Below, in pieces: positions 29,856 through 39,521 of a stretch of DNA of 64,000 bases (the first letter of the stretch is position 1; each line of letters opens with the position of its first letter). Both the position numbers and the translations under genes were made by a program. The notes below the pieces were generated by a model. That model searched no databases. It had not been told where the DNA came from and saw only the letters and a list, made by a program, of their open reading frames with translations. Where the stretch lies: assembly GCA_024405215.1 (NCBI GenBank), contig JAKSPB010000006.1, forward strand, positions 1 to 64,000, read 5' to 3'. Origin of the DNA: Lentisphaeria bacterium. Lineage in GTDB: Bacteria > Verrucomicrobiota > Lentisphaeria > Oligosphaerales > Oligosphaeraceae.

Positions 29856-31019
29856 TTATTTCAGCACGGGGGAAACGGGGAAGGCATCCGTTCCCAGGAT
29901 ATTCCGCTGAATGGCCAGGATTTCCTCCTTGGCCAGGCCGCAGGCCAGCAGAAAGCGCTCCGCCTTGTATTGCAGGGGTTCTTCGGCTTCGCCATACTTC
30001 TCCAGGCCGGCCAGCAATTCATCGACCCTGTTGAAGCGCCGAATGTCATGGAAGGAAGTCAAGACGTAATCCAGACGAATGTCATCGCGGGAGCATCCCA
30101 CCAGCGCCTCCAGCAGAAAAGCCGTGGTCCCCGTACGGTCGGCGCCGGCGATGCAGTGGAAGATGAGAGGATAGTTCTCCGGATCGGCGAAATTGCGCAG
30201 CATGTCCCGATAGGCAACCATGCCTTTTTCACTGTAAAGGTAGTTGGCGTACGCGCCAACCGCCGCATGGATGTATTTCACCGCAGGTCCGGCGGGGGAC
30301 TCCGCCATTTTGGCGGTCTCGACGTCGCTGCGCAGATCCACCTCGCAGCGAAGCTTCATCACGTTGCGGACAATCTTCTGGCCCTCCTCGGTAAGAACGC
30401 ACTTGCCGGGGGTCTTGCCGCCATCGTTGGAGTTGTTGTTCAGGCCGCCGGAACGGTAGACGCGACCGTAGGGAATGCGCAGGCCGTTCATGACTTGCTT
30501 GCCGCCCAGGTCCCGCACATTCCACATGTCCGGCACATACATCACCCGCCAGCCGCAATCCTCCACCGTGAAGGAATGGACGGCGCTCTCTGCCGTGAGG
30601 GAATTATCCGCGCGGGACAGACTCTGAATCTTCCAATAGTACGTCTTGCCGGGCTCCAGATTCTGCAAATTGAAATTCCGGCTCGCATTGGCCAGAATCC
30701 GCGCATCCGTCAATTCCGGATTGTCCCCCAGGCAAACCTGGAACTTGACCTTATCCCGGTCGCCATCGAAACTGAACCGGAAGGCAACGCCGGTCGGCAT
30801 CGAACCGTTCTTATCCATCGGAAGCTGGTCCAGCAGACGGGAATCCTGCCAGAAGGCCTCCACCTGTTCCATGGGCAGCCGCAGGACGACCTGCTGAATC
30901 GCCCGCAACGGCGACACCACCGCCTTGTCCAGCGGCCGCACAAGCGTGATTTTGTCCTCCGCAAACAGTGCGAAGGCACAGGTCAGGAACAACGCGGCAA
31001 CAAAGGAAAACCGTTTCAT
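29856..31019 (-). CDS. Secreted tyrosine-phosphatase-like protein
   Basis: A 387-residue exported protein with signal peptide MKRFSFVAALFLTCAFALFA. Residues about 60-160 look like a fibronectin III-type beta domain (LEPGKTYYWKIQSLS). The C-terminal half is a protein-tyrosine/dual-specificity phosphatase of the Y_phosphatase3 type. Its P-loop is HCIAGADRTG, with nucleophile Cys289 and Arg295, and WNVRDLGGK is the family's usual entry motif. It is expected to act outside the cytoplasm. It is transcribed alone, convergent with the PAP2 gene. Confidence 0.85.
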   Translation of the reverse strand: MKRFSFVAALFLTCAFALFAEDKITLVRPLDKAVVSPLRAIQQVVLRLPMEQVEAFWQDSRLLDQLPMDKNGSMPTGVAFRFSFDGDRDKVKFQVCLGDNPELTDARILANASRNFNLQNLEPGKTYYWKIQSLSRADNSLTAESAVHSFTVEDCGWRVMYVPDMWNVRDLGGKQVMNGLRIPYGRVYRSGGLNNNSNDGGKTPGKCVLTEEGQKIVRNVMKLRCEVDLRSDVETAKMAESPAGPAVKYIHAAVGAYANYLYSEKGMVAYRDMLRNFADPENYPLIFHCIAGADRTGTTAFLLEALVGCSRDDIRLDYVLTSFHDIRRFNRVDELLAGLEKYGEAEEPLQYKAERFLLACGLAKEEILAIQRNILGTDAFPVSPVLK

Positions 31020-31206: not shown

Positions 31207-32286
31207 TTACTCGCCGTCCCATTCTTCCACCCGGAAAGGCACGATGGCATATTGCGCCATGCGCTTCGCGGGTGTCAGCGAGTTGAAGAGATCCTGCAAC
31301 TTAATGGTGGCCAGACAGGTATTGGCGTCACCTGCACCGTAGTAGATCATGAGGCTCTCGGGATCTCTGGGATCCAGCAACGCGCCTTCCGGGAAGATGG
31401 TATTTTCCACGAAAAGCCCTTTGCAACCCGTTTCGTAAGGCGCTTCCGCCACGATAAGGGGCTTCTTGGTAATGGCGATGAGCTTCGTGGGGTCGTCCTT
31501 GTCAAAGAGAGCGGCGCCGCAGGCATAGCGGCGGTCCCAGCCCTTCCGGGCAGGCACATCGACGGCACGCGCAGGATCCGCATCCACGGCATGGAAAATC
31601 AGCAGCCATCCCCGGTCGGTCTTGACAGGCGGCGCCCCTGCGCCGATCTTCTTGTTGGCCCAGGGAACATCCTCGCAGCCCAGGAAGAGCTCCTGACGCC
31701 CCCAGAACTCCAGATCAGGAGAAACCGCATACCAGATATGGAAGGGATCGCCATACTGGTTGGAGGGACGCTCCAGGCGCATATACATCCCGTTGACTTT
31801 CTCCGGAAAGAGCACCATGTTCCGCTGCTGGGGAATCCCCAGGCACACCACATCGAAATCCACTCCCGTGCCACGCCATTTGGCAATGCCGGGGCGTTCG
31901 GAATGCTGGTTCTCGAAACAGAAAGACAGATAGAGACCGTCCTCCAGGACCGTGAGGCGGGAGTCCACGACCCAGGGAAGCAGCTTTCCTTTATAGTGCA
32001 CACGCATCAGCTCGGGTTCCATCTCCCAATGGATGCCGTCGTCGCTCCAGCCCATTCCCGTCCCCATCTTCAGGGCGGGACGGTCCAGGTTCTCGTTGAA
32101 AAGATCCACGCGCGGAGCGATGACAAAACGACCGTGATAGAAGTTTACGCCGGCATTGAAGACGTATGATGCGGGATAGGGAACGTCGTGCTTGGTCAGA
32201 ACGGGATTACCCTCGTAGCGATGCAGGCAGGGATTGCTGTGCAGTTCGCTCTTGTCGGCGGGAAGATCAAAAAAAGGATTTCTCAT
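31207..32286 (-). CDS. GH130-family glycoside phosphorylase
   Basis: A 359-residue cytoplasmic protein (no signal peptide) with a five-bladed beta-propeller pattern. It matches GH130, which phosphorolyses beta-mannosides, for example beta-1,4-mannooligosaccharides. Family features include the N-terminal NPCLHRYEGNPVLTKHDVP and VFNAGVNFYHGRFVIAPRV. GAGAPPVKTDRGWLLIFHAVD and MIYYGAGDANTCLA follow. The start overlaps the end of the CE15-like gene by 20 bp, indicating one transcript. GH43 has a similar fold but lacks these N-terminal signatures. Confidence 0.85.
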   Translation of the reverse strand: MRNPFFDLPADKSELHSNPCLHRYEGNPVLTKHDVPYPASYVFNAGVNFYHGRFVIAPRVDLFNENLDRPALKMGTGMGWSDDGIHWEMEPELMRVHYKGKLLPWVVDSRLTVLEDGLYLSFCFENQHSERPGIAKWRGTGVDFDVVCLGIPQQRNMVLFPEKVNGMYMRLERPSNQYGDPFHIWYAVSPDLEFWGRQELFLGCEDVPWANKKIGAGAPPVKTDRGWLLIFHAVDADPARAVDVPARKGWDRRYACGAALFDKDDPTKLIAITKKPLIVAEAPYETGCKGLFVENTIFPEGALLDPRDPESLMIYYGAGDANTCLATIKLQDLFNSLTPAKRMAQYAIVPFRVEEWDGE

Positions 32287-33610
32287 GGTTGTACGCCATT
32301 TTTGTTATTTCCGGAATTCTCTTGTCAACAAAATCAAGCGCCCAGGTCCAGTCGTATGCGGAAATGCCCTGGTAGCCTGCCCGCTGGACATACCCTAGGC
32401 AAGGACCAATGGCGGCAGTGCTGAAGACCTCCGGGAAGGAAGTCCCGGGCAAGCCAGGAAGGCCCAGGAACTCCCAGGCGGGAGATGCCGCCCGGCAAGC
32501 CAGGTATTCGCTCTTGGTCTCCATCCAGTCATAGGAATTGAATCCCTGGACCAGGACCCGGCGGGGGGCCAAAGAGGCCAGCAGCAGATGCTGGTCAAAG
32601 GTGAGCAGCCGGACGGGATTCCGGTCGTATTTGGCGTATGCCTTGCAATACCAATGGGTGAAGGTGCGCACCTCAGTGGCGATGTTCTCCCCGAAATCAC
32701 GCTTGGCCAGGCGAACGCCGCCGCCGCCGCACTGGTTCAGGATCGCAGTGCCGAACCGGGTGTCCCGTGCCGCGGCCAGGAAAGCCGCCTTGCCAAGACG
32801 GGCGTGTCCCAGGACAATCGCCTGGGAGGCATCCAGTTCGGGAATCCGTTCCACCAGGTCCATTCCCCGGGAAAGGGCCCAGGCCCAGGCGCCCAACGAG
32901 GTCGGGTTGTCCTGCCGCTTTGCGTCCCGTTTCCCCCAAAGGTCGAAAACGCCGGTATAGGCAAAGGGATTCTGCCTGTGAAGCGGATTGGGTTCCATCC
33001 AGTCGGGATCCGGATCAGGCGAAACCTGGCAATAGCAGGCGGTCAGCAGCGCATAGCCCCGGGCAAGGAGCATCCCAAGGGGCATTACCGTCTTGGAGTT
33101 CGGATTGCACATATACCCCCGGGAAGAGGCGGAAGGGCGGTTGTTCCCGTGGGGAACGAAGATATCGTTCCGGCAGAAGGCATTGGGGACCTCGATATCC
33201 TCGTCGGGAACCAGTTCGTGGTTGCCGCGGTAGTTCAGCATGACGAAGACAGGCACACGGGCGGTGGCATATTGCGGACGGAAAAGGAGCCAGTCGATGC
33301 ATGGCCCCGTCCTGTCCGCCTTGAACCACATCCGATAACGGCACCTGACTCCGAAGCCGCCCAGGGCCTCCCGCTGTTCGTCCACCTGTTCCACCACCAG
33401 TTCCTCAGGCGGCGGCGGTTCCTGGCCATACATCTCCCGGGCGAAAATGCCCAGGATCTCCTGCCGCCGTCCTTCCCAGTCCGTCACTGTCGCGACTTTC
33501 GTGCCGTCGACGAAGGTCAGCGGATCTTCCAGAGTATAAGGCGTGATCCGAGATTCGTCAAAGTTGGGCTCGTCGTAGTCGGAGCGGATGGGAGGAACAG
33601 ACTTGGTCAT
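32267..33610 (-). CDS. CE15-like alpha/beta-hydrolase lacking catalytic Ser and His
   Basis: A 447-residue alpha/beta-hydrolase-fold protein related to carbohydrate esterase family 15 (glucuronoyl esterases). No signal peptide is visible. The nucleophile elbow, usually GHSR(L/G)GK, reads GHARLGK with Ala270 (codon 32801-32803). The usual C-terminal GGHG/GGHD catalytic His region reads AGYQGISAYDW with Gln414 (codon 32369-32371). The rest of the family pattern is kept, including QCGGGG, KRDFGEN, TFDQHLLLASLAPRRV and ALDFVDK. This points to a non-catalytic or altered protein rather than decay, since the frame is intact. It is co-transcribed with the GH130 phosphorylase. Confidence 0.72.
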   Translation of the reverse strand: MTKSVPPIRSDYDEPNFDESRITPYTLEDPLTFVDGTKVATVTDWEGRRQEILGIFAREMYGQEPPPPEELVVEQVDEQREALGGFGVRCRYRMWFKADRTGPCIDWLLFRPQYATARVPVFVMLNYRGNHELVPDEDIEVPNAFCRNDIFVPHGNNRPSASSRGYMCNPNSKTVMPLGMLLARGYALLTACYCQVSPDPDPDWMEPNPLHRQNPFAYTGVFDLWGKRDAKRQDNPTSLGAWAWALSRGMDLVERIPELDASQAIVLGHARLGKAAFLAAARDTRFGTAILNQCGGGGVRLAKRDFGENIATEVRTFTHWYCKAYAKYDRNPVRLLTFDQHLLLASLAPRRVLVQGFNSYDWMETKSEYLACRAASPAWEFLGLPGLPGTSFPEVFSTAAIGPCLGYVQRAGYQGISAYDWTWALDFVDKRIPEITKMAYNHEKSFF

Positions 33611-33856: not shown

Positions 33857-34714
33857 CTAGCGCTTGTCTCCGCCGGCGATGTTCACGCCGGGGAACCAGT
33901 AGTAGTCAGCCTCCAGCGCATAGTCGCCGTTGCTGTTCTTCACCTTGCCCTTGCTCAGAGAAACAGTCTCGACATGACCGTCGCTCATGGACATGTTCAT
34001 CTGGTTGCCATGGCGGAAATACCGAAGGGCATTGGCGTCGGTGGAGTTCGAGAGAGCATAGATGGAAGTGCCCGTCGCCACGACGCAGGTCTTGTTCACG
34101 CCCATCCAGAAGGCATTCTGCGTGCCGTCAAAGAGATTGACGTGGAGCGAGGGATACTGGATGCTGGCGACGCGGTGCCAGGAAGTCGCGGCAGTGAGAT
34201 CCACGCCTGCCTTGGCCATGGACGTACTGGCGCCCATCCCTGAACCGAAACTCATTCCCATGCTTGCCTGATAGCCGTTGTTGCCGCCCGTGCGGTCAGT
34301 GGCAACGCAGGAGGGGCAGATTGTGATCTTATGCCAGGCGCTGGTCTCGGCATTGCCCTCTTCGACGTATGCCGCCTTGTCCTTGTTGTACCATTGCTGG
34401 CAGTTCATGGGAGTGCCGGGAATAAGGGGATTCAGCGTGAACCATGTGATGACGTAGGCTCTGTTCATGTAGTCCTGCGCCCAAACACGGGAGGTCGTGT
34501 TGCCGTCGTTGCGGCAGGCGGTGGGAGGCAGGAAATCATCGTAGTCGTTGGTGTAGAGAAGATTTCCCAGCGTCAGCTGCTTCAGGTTGTTGACGCAGCT
34601 GATGGCACGGGCCTTCTCGCGAGCCTTGGAAAGCGCAGGCAGGAGCATGGAAGCCAAAATGGCGATGATCGCGATCACGACCAGAAGTTCAATCAGGGTG
34701 AAGTTCTTTTTCAT
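33857..34714 (-). CDS. Type II secretion pseudopilin-like protein (H-x9-DG)
   Basis: A 285-residue protein with a type IV pilin-like N-terminus: a short basic leader, then [20 protein letters not shown]. The conserved Glu5 is present, but the residue before the cleaved bond is Asn rather than the usual Gly. [13 protein letters not shown] follows. The C-terminal H-x9-DG motif is exact ([12 protein letters not shown]). Such proteins are expanded in Lentisphaerota and Planctomycetota; their cellular role is not established. A strong AAGGAG site precedes the ATG. No other secretion-system genes are nearby. It is divergent from an AraC-type regulator. Confidence 0.88.
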
Positions 34715-34779
34715 GGAACAGGAATCTCCTTGCGAATTTGGGATGAATTAGGGAAACAAACAAAAAGGTCTTTGCATAT

Positions 34780-34807
34780 ATTGTAAGAAAAAATGCGTTA
34801 AACTCAA
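34780..34807 (-). promoter_or_regulatory. Promoter of the pseudopilin gene
   Basis: On the minus strand, TTGAGT (34807-34802) and TACAAT (34785-34780) are separated by 16 bp, upstream of the pseudopilin start. The same 16-bp spacing and TTGAG box occur at the first glycosidase promoter. Confidence 0.6.
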
Positions 34808-34868
34808 TAGACACATACTGCCATTTATGGTAACATATTGCTCTTTTTCCATGAAGTTTTCGTAAAAA

Positions 34869-34898
34869 TTGTCTTTTGAAGGAAATGTATTGTATAAA
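34869..34898 (+). promoter_or_regulatory. Promoter of the AraC-type regulator
   Basis: TTGTCT (34869-34874) and TATAAA (34893-34898) with an 18-bp spacer, 56 bp before the ATG. The AT-rich 34715-34954 region between the divergent genes is a likely binding zone for the regulator itself (inference). Confidence 0.5.
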
Positions 34899-34954
34899 AG
34901 TGCTATGTTATTTTTCCCATCTCCTTCTACATTTCCGATTCATCTCTCCTTTTC

Positions 34955-35887
34955 ATGCCTGTTGTTTCACGCGCCAATTTTGCGAACTTCCTGCTTGATT
35001 TCACCGTAGCGAAGCCGATGTCGCGCCTTCCCGTGGAGCCTTGCCTCCTGGGAATCAGCCAGGAACCGGCAAATCCGATGCAATACATGCCTGAGGGGAA
35101 AAACGGCGGGGAGCACTTCTTTTTCTATTATGTTCTCTCGGGAGAAGTTGACTTTGCCTCCGCAGACGAACGACTTCGCCTAAAAAAAGGCGAGGCCTTG
35201 CTGAGCTGCTCTTCCGTTGACTGGAAGTGCCTTCCTGGCTCCTCCTCTGAATCCTTCCGTTCTCTTTTCTTTGTCATGAAGGGCGAAACCGCACTTTCGC
35301 TGGGAAGGCAGCTCCTGGAGCAACATGGCTCCAAGATGGCACTAGTCCCGCATTGCCCCTCCCTGGAACTGCTATTGGAACATCTTCAGGAATTGCGTGG
35401 AGACGCATCCTGGAATACGCCTGACGAATCCGTTTTCGCCTATCGCTTTCTAGTTTCACTGTTTTGGGAACAAACGAACTCCCCCCAGCCCGACGAGACA
35501 ATTGTTCCCGCAGCCGAAGAGCCATCCGATGATGAACAGATTCCCGAAAACCTGCGCCGGGCCACCCAGTATGTGGAGAAACATTTTGCGGATACCCTTC
35601 TGAACGTGGAGACCATCGCCAAAGTGGCCGGCTTCTCCAAATACTATTTCATCCGGCTTTTCGAAAAGACATACGGCATTTCTCCCTGGAAATACCTGCT
35701 TGCCCAACGGCTCTACCATGCCGCGCAACTCCTGGCCCAAGACAAGACCCTGCCCCTGAAAGCCATCATCCAGCAGTGCGGTTTCACCAGCGAGACCTAT
35801 TTCTGCAAGGCCTTCCGGAAGACCTTCCAGCGTTCTCCGGGAAGCCATAGGCGCCTGATGAGCAACACAATCCCCACCACTTTGTAG
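34955..35887 (+). CDS. AraC-family transcriptional regulator
   Basis: A 310-residue regulator. The N-terminal ~150 residues form a cupin-like sensor domain (FFYYVLSGEVDFASADERLRL). The C-terminal ~100 residues are an AraC/XylS double helix-turn-helix, with NVETIAKVAGFSKYYFIRLF and LKAIIQQCGFTSETYFCKAF. Such proteins usually respond to a sugar. It is divergent from the pseudopilin gene and directly upstream of an SGNH protein and a GH123-like enzyme on the same strand, so these are plausible targets. Confidence 0.9.
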   Translation: MPVVSRANFANFLLDFTVAKPMSRLPVEPCLLGISQEPANPMQYMPEGKNGGEHFFFYYVLSGEVDFASADERLRLKKGEALLSCSSVDWKCLPGSSSESFRSLFFVMKGETALSLGRQLLEQHGSKMALVPHCPSLELLLEHLQELRGDASWNTPDESVFAYRFLVSLFWEQTNSPQPDETIVPAAEEPSDDEQIPENLRRATQYVEKHFADTLLNVETIAKVAGFSKYYFIRLFEKTYGISPWKYLLAQRLYHAAQLLAQDKTLPLKAIIQQCGFTSETYFCKAFRKTFQRSPGSHRRLMSNTIPTTL

Positions 35888-35930: not shown

Positions 35931-36740
35931 ATGAATCTGAACGAGTTCTTCCTGGACGATCCCTTTGAAAAGCCATTGGACCATCTTGTCCCCGACGGCG
36001 GCTACTGCGGGATTCTGAAAAGCGTGGCTTGTATCGGGGCCAGCCTGGATTCCGGTGAAATCGAGATCTTCGACCAAACAGGCAAGCGCTTCTGCATTGA
36101 CAAATATGAATATTCCTGGCTGAGTTACTTCGGGCATGTGACCGGCAACCTGGTCCGCCATTTCACGCGCGGCGGCATGAGCACAAAGGAATACGTGGAA
36201 GAGTATGCGGACTGGCATGGTCTCTGGGACCGGAAGCTGGCCTGCAACGCCTACGTAATCACCCTGAGCGGAAATGACATCTCCCTGATGCTTCGCGGAG
36301 ACCTGGAGTTCGGCTCCTGGGAAGACATCGACCTCCAGGACTACCACAACAACAAGAAGTCCTTCATGGGATACTACGCGACCATCGTCCAGCGATGCCG
36401 CGAAATCAGCCCCCGCTGCCGCATCTTCCCGACGCTCTGCTTCCAGAAAGCCACTGGACAACGTCTGCCCTACCTCAAGAAGATGCAGGCATTCTTCCAG
36501 GAACTCTCCGAAAGGCTGCCCTTCGTCTATTTCATGGACCTCTTCCAGAACGGCCCCGTCGTCGACGAGGCCTTCGAGAAGAAATTCTTCATGAACGGGC
36601 ACATGACTCCCGCCGGATATCTCCTGAAAGGACGACTCTTCACATCCTACCTGGACTACATCATCCGGCACAACCTGGATGATTTCACCCAGATCGCCAC
36701 CATTGGAGAAGATTTGTACGACCCGAAATACACATGGTAG
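35931..36740 (+). CDS. SGNH-hydrolase-like protein
   Basis: A 269-residue cytoplasmic protein with a clear AAGGAG ribosome-binding site. SGNH-type blocks can be placed: IGASLDSG (Ser in block I), LSGNDIS (Asn in block III) and NGHMTPAGY (His in block V). This suggests an esterase, though no close family comes to mind. It lies 43 bp after the AraC regulator and 93 bp before the GH123-like gene, consistent with a carbohydrate operon. Confidence 0.6.
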   Translation: MNLNEFFLDDPFEKPLDHLVPDGGYCGILKSVACIGASLDSGEIEIFDQTGKRFCIDKYEYSWLSYFGHVTGNLVRHFTRGGMSTKEYVEEYADWHGLWDRKLACNAYVITLSGNDISLMLRGDLEFGSWEDIDLQDYHNNKKSFMGYYATIVQRCREISPRCRIFPTLCFQKATGQRLPYLKKMQAFFQELSERLPFVYFMDLFQNGPVVDEAFEKKFFMNGHMTPAGYLLKGRLFTSYLDYIIRHNLDDFTQIATIGEDLYDPKYTW

Positions 36741-36833
36741 AAAACTCCCAGCCCCTTTGTCTTGGATTTCTGGGAAAAGAGCAATAGTTTCCCCTGCGCT
36801 TGCCCCTCCCTTGTCCACACATTCATCCCCGCC

Positions 36834-39521
36834 ATGAAACCCCTCCTCCTCACTCTGCTGTTCGCCGCCGCAGCGCTTAATGCGGAATTGCAACTGATTC
36901 CAAAACCAACTGACATCCCGGCGCCGATTTCCTTCTTCACCCAGACCGAACCCATCCCCGAAGGCGCCACCGCGGATGAGTTCCTGGAGACTTCGCCCAT
37001 GACGGAACCGCTTCCCCAGGAAGCGTCCCTGCAAATGATGCTTTTCCAAAGGCCGTTGACGGATCCCATCTGGCCCTCCAGCCATCCCCAGGCCTACGAA
37101 CGAGTGGAGGAACTCTCCGGCTGGGGCGCACAGGGGCAGTATGTCACCCTGAACTTCGCGGTCTACCCCCTGGCTGACCTGAAGAACCTGACAGTCCAGG
37201 TAGAGGATTCCAGCATCCGTCCGGAAGTGCGCCTGGTCCGCTACTGGAATGTGATCTACCCTTTCTACAATTCCTATCGGGATCCCACGGGCCCGAAACG
37301 CTATCGCCGAATGCCGGAGTTCCTCATGCCGGCGCCCCGCTGCGATGCCCCCCAAAACGAGCCCCAGCGCTTTTATCTCACTTTCCATCTGCCCGAAAAA
37401 GGCGCCAGGGAGATTTCCGGCAACGTGCTGATCTATCATGACGGCACGGACGAGGCGGTGAAAATGCCGTTCCACATCCAGGTGCTGCCCTTCCAGCTGA
37501 AGCAGGATCCCGCAAAGCACTTCTCCGCATACTACTACCACGTGCGACACAAGGACAAGACCGAATTCTACGAAAAAAACCAGGCGGACAAGGAGCTGGT
37601 CCGAAAGGCCCAAGTCGCGGAATTCCGCCGCATGAAGGAATACGGATTCACCCGCACCCCGACCTTCTACATGTCCTTCGGACAACTCCCCGACGGCACC
37701 AAGGACGCCTTCTACATCCCTGGCTTCGACGAGGCCCTGGAGGATCTGAAGAGCGCAGGATTCGACCTGACACAGCCTATACCCGTCGTGGGATCCTCCT
37801 ACATGATGCTCTACCAGAAGTTCACGGGCCTGAAACTGGCAAGCTTCCACATGCAGAACATCGACTGCAGCAAGATTCCCCAGGAACTCTACGACTGCAT
37901 GGACAGCGCATTGGAGAAATTCCTCGCCTACGCAAAGGAACACAACTATCCACCCATGATCTTCAACCCCATCGACGAGCCCTCTCCCGAAGCCCTGCCC
38001 TACGTCCTGGGAATCTACCGGATCTTCAAGAAGCACGGACTGAAGACCTTCATGACCTCTCCCCCCGACGAGCTGATTCGACAGGGCGATGAACTCTTCG
38101 ACATCTACAGCTACGGAAAATTCCTGGTCCCCTACGAAAAGGCCGTCTCCGGAGACAAGATGGAATACTGGTGCTACCCCAACGACATCGCCTTCCAAAA
38201 GAAAGACCCCGTGGCCATGTGCCATGGAGGACGCCTCACCTACGGCCTCGGATACTGGCGCAGGGGATTCCATTGCGTCATGCCCTGGATCTGGAGCGTC
38301 AGAACTTCCGACAGACTCTGCAACGCCGGCGGAAATCTCATGAACCCCGACACCGGTGAACTCTACATGACGACCTACTGGGAGTGTTTCCGCCTGGGCG
38401 TGGACGACCTGCGGTACATCTACACCCTGGAAGATGCGGTGGTCCGCCGCGAGAACTCCACGGATCCGGCGCTCCAGGCAAACATCCAGTCCGCACGGGA
38501 ATTGCTGCAGAAAATCTGGGACCATACCTGTCCCCAGGTCATCCACATGCGAGACAACTTGATGCCCCAGGCGGAAATCGACGCCATCCGTGCCCAGACG
38601 GCCGCCATGATCCTGAAGCTGAAGTCCTATCCCGAAACCCAGGACGTGACGGCGCCGTCGGTCATCATTGAACCGCGCGGCGACTATGCCTGGCCCAAGG
38701 ACCTCCCGGACAGCCCCAATGTCCTCTTTCATCCTCTCCACCGATGGGAGCCTGTAGCCAAGGAACTGACCATGAAGGAACTACCGGACCATCTGAATGT
38801 GCAAATCGCCATCGACCACACTCTGGCAGGCGAAGGGAACTACCTTTGCGGATGGCCGCGCGTCCGCCATGCTTTCAATGCCGAAGAGAAGGACCTGACC
38901 CGCTTCTCCGCCATTGAGTTCGATCTGACGGTTTCCTCCGACCGTGATGCCCAGACGGACTACGACTGGCCCATCAACATCTCCTTCAAGACCGCCAACG
39001 GACAGGAGATGGAGTTCCGGATCGCCAACACATTGGAACCACAGGTCAAGCACCATTTCAACATCCCCATCGCCAAGCTCACCGCCTTTAGCCAGGATGA
39101 CTTGAAGAAGATGGGCTTCATGCAGATCTTCATCAACGAAATCAATTACCCCCACGGATGCCATCTGGATATCCAGATCGGCAATCCCAGAATGGTGGGA
39201 TTCCGCAGTCCAACCATCCTGAAGACGGACGCCCCGGAATGCGTCTCCCTGCCGCTAGCCAATTTCTCCCTGTCGGTCCTTGCGGGAGGCGTCACCGAGG
39301 GAACTCCATGCCTCGCAAAAGCCGAACTGGTAAATCCGCAAGGCGAAGTTCTCCAGGTGTCGGAAATCCCGGTCCGCCAGGGATGCGCCACCTGCGGCTT
39401 CCAGGCCACGGAACTCGCCCCCGGCAAATACACCATCCGAATCCGACTGCTCGGACAGGACGGAGAAGTGCAGGACGAGATGAGCAGACCGCTGACAATC
39501 CTGCCCGCACTCGCCGAATAG
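36834..39521 (+). CDS. Secreted GH123/DUF4091-like glycoside hydrolase
   Basis: An 895-residue exported protein. The ATG at 36834 starts a signal peptide (MKPLLLTLLFAAAALNAE). N-terminal beta domains (about 60-220) precede a TIM-barrel region. This contains NPIDEP, an Asp-Glu pair like the substrate-assisted catalytic pair of GH123/GH20-type enzymes. YWECFRLGVDDLRYIYTLED is the typical DUF4091 end of the barrel. A C-terminal beta region (about 620-895) looks like a carbohydrate-binding module. The substrate is probably an N-acetyl-hexosaminide if it follows GH123 (inference). A terminator follows at 39544. Confidence 0.7.
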   Translation: MKPLLLTLLFAAAALNAELQLIPKPTDIPAPISFFTQTEPIPEGATADEFLETSPMTEPLPQEASLQMMLFQRPLTDPIWPSSHPQAYERVEELSGWGAQGQYVTLNFAVYPLADLKNLTVQVEDSSIRPEVRLVRYWNVIYPFYNSYRDPTGPKRYRRMPEFLMPAPRCDAPQNEPQRFYLTFHLPEKGAREISGNVLIYHDGTDEAVKMPFHIQVLPFQLKQDPAKHFSAYYYHVRHKDKTEFYEKNQADKELVRKAQVAEFRRMKEYGFTRTPTFYMSFGQLPDGTKDAFYIPGFDEALEDLKSAGFDLTQPIPVVGSSYMMLYQKFTGLKLASFHMQNIDCSKIPQELYDCMDSALEKFLAYAKEHNYPPMIFNPIDEPSPEALPYVLGIYRIFKKHGLKTFMTSPPDELIRQGDELFDIYSYGKFLVPYEKAVSGDKMEYWCYPNDIAFQKKDPVAMCHGGRLTYGLGYWRRGFHCVMPWIWSVRTSDRLCNAGGNLMNPDTGELYMTTYWECFRLGVDDLRYIYTLEDAVVRRENSTDPALQANIQSARELLQKIWDHTCPQVIHMRDNLMPQAEIDAIRAQTAAMILKLKSYPETQDVTAPSVIIEPRGDYAWPKDLPDSPNVLFHPLHRWEPVAKELTMKELPDHLNVQIAIDHTLAGEGNYLCGWPRVRHAFNAEEKDLTRFSAIEFDLTVSSDRDAQTDYDWPINISFKTANGQEMEFRIANTLEPQVKHHFNIPIAKLTAFSQDDLKKMGFMQIFINEINYPHGCHLDIQIGNPRMVGFRSPTILKTDAPECVSLPLANFSLSVLAGGVTEGTPCLAKAELVNPQGEVLQVSEIPVRQGCATCGFQATELAPGKYTIRIRLLGQDGEVQDEMSRPLTILPALAE

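Follow-up and report, generated by a model that had tools for sequence, protein, structure and literature searches.

The gene at 32267–33610 on the minus strand of the window (the 64,000-nucleotide stretch of Lentisphaeria DNA analysed here) encodes a 447-amino-acid relative of a plant-cell-wall esterase, with the fold of carbohydrate esterase family 15 (CE15). The protein, from a gut-type bacterium, carries neither the catalytic Ser, the catalytic His nor a catalytic acid, and no signal peptide is seen in it. Taken together, our analyses suggest that this is probably a lineage-specific, cytosolic CE15 pseudoenzyme, kept to bind a uronic-acid sugar.

A CE15 protein with four replaced catalytic positions

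The gene is a single uninterrupted frame, and its product is a full-length CE15 relative by descent and alpha/beta-hydrolase fold. It matched the Pfam family GCE_fung (E 2e-22), and its best solved match was OtCE15A, the glucuronoyl esterase of Opitutus terrae (PDB 6syr, and 6syv for the S267A variant; E 1.7e-65, residues 23–431), to which it is about 35% identical and which it resembles in fold over its whole length. An AlphaFold2 model of the protein (pLDDT 81, pTM 0.87) displayed the CE15 fold: about 385 residues superposed on OtCE15A with a Z of about 45 and an rmsd of 2.4–2.5. The OtCE15A structures matched by the model included the H408A variant and the glucuronate-bound S267A variant. 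In residues 290–340, which form the pocket cap, the confidence of the model was lower than in the model of a Ser/His-bearing sister protein. MZ0003, the Solibacter usitatus CE15 and PvCE15 belong to the same bacterial CE15 branch (Z 41–43); in contrast to the 447-aa protein, their descriptions are of active esterases that possess Ser, His and an acid. The frame and the remainder of the fold pattern are thus intact, as the initial annotation had stated.

Ser267, His408, Glu290 and Asp356 are all present in OtCE15A, and all four are replaced here. The nucleophile Ser of the motif GxSRxGK is absent: the elbow reads GHARLGK, with Ala270 (codon 32801–32803, minus) aligned to Ser267. The general-base His is likewise absent, the His loop reading G-Y-Q-G with Gln414 (32369–32371, minus) aligned to His408. 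Both substitutions had been read correctly from the DNA in the initial annotation, which overlooked that both known acid positions are lost as well. Neither of these holds Glu or Asp: the catalytic acid position, Glu290 in OtCE15A, is occupied by Gln293 (32732–32734, minus), a Gln throughout the subfamily, and the second, Asp356 in OtCE15A, by Tyr360 (32531–32533, minus).

The natural GHARLGK elbow is identical to that of the laboratory mutant S267A of OtCE15A. In that enzyme, kcat was reduced about 17,000-fold by S267A, about 1,700-fold by H408A and about 85-fold in a double acid mutant (PMC6937553, PMC8933493), and the Ser-His pair is described as invariant in CE15 (PMC11345330, PMC11096219). 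Because the S267A and H408A mutants of OtCE15A lose kcat, we infer that the esterase activity of the 447-aa protein has been lost. The S267A mutant was not fully dead, since soaked substrate was still turned over (PMC6937553).

In OtCE15A, Arg268, Lys271, Glu305 and Trp358 are reported to hold the glucuronate or the oxyanion (PMC6937553, PMC8933493). The 447-aa protein shares all of these and the nearby Asp207 (OtCE15A numbering), and they are kept in all four genes that carry the Ala and Gln replacements (see below). The oxyanion Arg and the glucuronate-contacting Lys lie in Arg271–Lys274 (32789–32800, minus), the contact to glucuronate O2/O3 is Glu308 (32687–32689, minus) and the glucuronate/xylan contact is Trp362 (32525–32527, minus). 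The S267A variant of OtCE15A bound glucuronate as the wild type does (PMC6937553). Since the contacts are kept and the serine-less mutant still binds, the 447-aa protein would probably bind a uronate sugar, and this ligand need not be a glucuronate.

Origin and maintenance of the Ala and Gln replacements

The Ala+Gln pair was found in four genes from three species of one genus: the window gene, its orthologue in genome G001 (86%), a copy in a third species, G002 (75%), and a paralogue on contig C38 of the same genome as the window (75%). The window gene is therefore not the sole exception among its homologues at positions 270 and 414, and the identical changes in four separate genes rule out chance and errors of sequencing or assembly. 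The four genes form one clade (SH-aLRT 100), which splits into two pairs; the loss of Ser and His therefore predates the split of the pairs, including at least one duplication.

The closest outside relatives are a sister CE15 subfamily of 55 sequences from Lentisphaeria, Kiritimatiellae and Bacteroidales, 40–65% identical and with the same pocket residues. Unlike the Ala+Gln clade, the sisters kept Ser267 in every case (55/55) and His408 in all 53 sequences that reach this position, the other two ending before it. Like the clade, they carry Gln at the canonical acid position 290 (55/55), and only 10 of the 55 have an acid at either 290 or 356. Thus, there is a CE15 subfamily with Ser and His in which Gln stands for the canonical acid and from which Asp356 is mostly missing (e.g. 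L190, L122, L125 and L135). Within CE15-like frames, a degenerate DNA pattern for GHARLGK was found in these four genes only among 387 genomes of the phylum, its other 14 matches being in unrelated frames. No Ala/Gln members beyond the four were found among 59 relatives, 29 genomes of the family and the 387 genomes of the phylum, nor with exact peptide patterns in contigs from 84,980 species. Plasmid records held only CE15 relatives with identities below 60%, mostly annotated as acetylxylan esterase.

The Ala+Gln genes are under purifying selection. All four copies are open and have diverged past a dS of about 1, and the pairwise dN/dS within the clade is 0.06–0.17, similar to that of the Ser/His sisters, the large dS making these ratios rough. 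Near-invariant columns were defined as those at least 97% conserved in the sisters, with His408 left uncounted since two of the sisters end before reaching it; 64 of the 67 were unchanged in all four genes, and the changed ones were Ser267, Gly295 and Asp360 (OtCE15A numbering). The replacements common to all four include OtCE15A positions 159, 266, 267, 284, 288, 403 and 408, several of the clade-wide replacements adjoin catalytic positions in the sequence, and their pattern reads as a rebuilt pocket floor rather than as decay. A gene decaying towards loss would account for the missing catalytic residues and for the locally lower model confidence at the pocket cap; with four open, diverged copies, low dN/dS, identical replacements in every copy and nearly all conserved columns kept, we regard decay as extremely improbable. 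The suggestion of the initial annotation that the loss of both residues is not random decay was thus upheld. The clade shows what is expected of a pseudoenzyme, namely catalytic residues lost and the loss conserved in orthologues under purifying selection, here in four genes of one clade.

No clear signal-peptide-like hydrophobic stretch was found in any of the four Ala+Gln proteins, which are consequently predicted to be cytosolic. An N-terminal hydrophobic stretch is missing, with some exceptions, from most members in the source family and class, and is present in more distant Kiritimatiellae-type members. The lack of a signal peptide in most family and class members of the subfamily, unlike in secreted CE15 enzymes, suggests that intracellular CE15 proteins exist. 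Because the sisters are already mostly without the acid and most family and class members without the hydrophobic stretch, the acid and the signal peptide seem to have been lost first, and Ser and His last. The activity of the ancestor itself is uncertain, since the usual acid was already missing from it.

Gene neighbourhood

Downstream of the CE15-like gene lies a GH130 mannoside-phosphorylase-like gene (31207–32286, minus) with an ordinary family match, the start of which shares 20 nt with the end of the CE15-like gene. The initial annotation took this coupling as a clue to function. The adjoining gene is real, but the arrangement is unique to the source genome and was rejected as functional evidence: no GH130 gene was found beside the other CE15 loci fetched. 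At the G001 orthologue its place directly beside the CE15 gene is taken by an AP_endonuc_2 TIM-barrel gene, and the GH130 orthologue of that genome (77%) is on another contig, away from the CE15 gene. At the C38 paralogue the downstream gene is convergent and there is no partner gene; across the Ala+Gln genes, no conserved operon protein partner was found. The CE15-like protein has a C-terminal tail (32267–32310, minus) that runs into the GH130 start and exceeds that of most homologues in length, which would fit a recent placement of GH130 there. Further downstream, the gene at 29856–31019 (minus) probably encodes a secreted protein resembling tyrosine phosphatases (Y_phosphatase3), whose N-terminal part is fibronectin-like.

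Upstream on the same strand is a DUF1559 pseudopilin-like gene (33857–34714, minus), with a 69% counterpart beside the orthologue, followed by a divergent AraC-family regulator (34955–35887, plus). The AraC-type regulator is a better conserved neighbour than GH130: counterparts were present beside the orthologue (57–59%) and about 4 kb from the paralogue (42–45%), and of the roughly 25 AraC-type genes of this genome the latter is the closest to the window AraC. No AraC counterpart was matched near the remaining CE15 loci. Comparison of the AraC gene at the paralogue locus (L137, 3444–4364) with that of the window looks as if regulator and CE15-like gene had been duplicated together. Pairs of AraC and DUF1559 pseudopilin genes recur at several places in the genome (L230, L231 and 33857–35887 of the window), and for this reason we consider the evidence for a link between AraC and the CE15-like gene to be moderate only. 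Beyond the regulator, a 919-aa protein with no significant Pfam match (36762–39521, plus) is 78% conserved beside the orthologue (L120), where it is also accompanied by a GDSL-like gene (35931–36740 in the window).

Candidate functions and their rivals

Herein, we describe the course of events that would have formed the putative uronate-binding pseudoenzyme. The ancestor would have been an active-type CE15 alpha/beta-hydrolase that had already lost its signal peptide and catalytic acids. In this genus, Ser would then have changed to Ala and His to Gln before the gene was duplicated, leaving a uronic-acid pocket with its Arg, Lys, Glu and Trp contacts and without hydrolytic chemistry. The protein would now most probably bind a uronate-bearing oligosaccharide or uronate ester imported into the cell, and may serve as a holding, sensing or regulatory component of a glycan-use locus under the local AraC regulator; this cellular role is a guess. 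Between the binding role and the new catalytic role that had been proposed initially, binding is favoured, since the glucuronate contacts are all kept; GH130, the clue offered for either, is set aside.

The pocket could instead have been retained for other chemistry that needs no Ser nucleophile, such as water-mediated hydrolysis or another reaction on uronates. A galacturonate pose in PvCE15, with water near the uronate carbon, recurs in OtCE15A S267A and suggested a water-mediated route (PMC10807430), Arg268 and Lys271 are kept, and the clade has gained a conserved His269 and Ser359 while keeping other polar residues. However, with His408 and the acids gone there is no obvious base to activate water, His269 corresponds to the non-catalytic His266 of OtCE15A, and no new set of residues resembles a known active site; we therefore hold such a redesigned enzyme to be rather improbable. 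The same two gained residues, which all four genes conserve and few of the sisters have, might be taken for a shifted Ser/His pair in a still-active esterase. This is very unlikely: CE15 members described in the literature hold the pair at the Ser267 and His408 positions, the His in question adjoins the nucleophile position, and in the alignment of clade and sisters no new conserved Ser or Cys nucleophile with a partner His was evident.

Another account would have the protein assist the enzymes encoded next to it (GH130, or AP_endonuc_2 in the orthologue) as a structural or allosteric partner, its pocket being kept for stability only. The 20-nt overlap with GH130 is consistent with this, as is the next gene at the orthologue, which likewise overlaps the stop codon; yet the orthologues have different partners and the paralogue has none, and stability alone would not require invariant sugar contacts lining an open cleft. 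A partner role thus appears to us an improbable one. We give somewhat more credit, while still thinking it unlikely, to the bolder proposal of a cytosolic CE15-derived protein that acts as a uronate-oligosaccharide sensor for the co-duplicated AraC or as a serine-free catalyst on uronates. If true, either function would be without a described precedent in the CE15 fold.

No earlier report of a CE15 pseudoenzyme was found in the open literature searched, so a triad-less one is apparently unreported; pseudoenzymes as a kind are already known. The GH28 pseudoenzymes of Phytophaga beetles (PMC6549527) are similar in being non-catalytic relatives of carbohydrate enzymes that remain important to the same pathway. 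They differ from the 447-aa protein in that their fold is unrelated, they are from animals and their role was shown by gene silencing.

A natural set of triad-less proteins with a kept uronate pocket offers a ready test of the role of this pocket without catalysis. The apparent stepwise order, in which the signal peptide, the acid and then Ser and His before the duplication were lost, allows the path from an enzyme to a binding protein to be traced. Caution is advised where such genes are annotated automatically as glucuronoyl or acetylxylan esterases.
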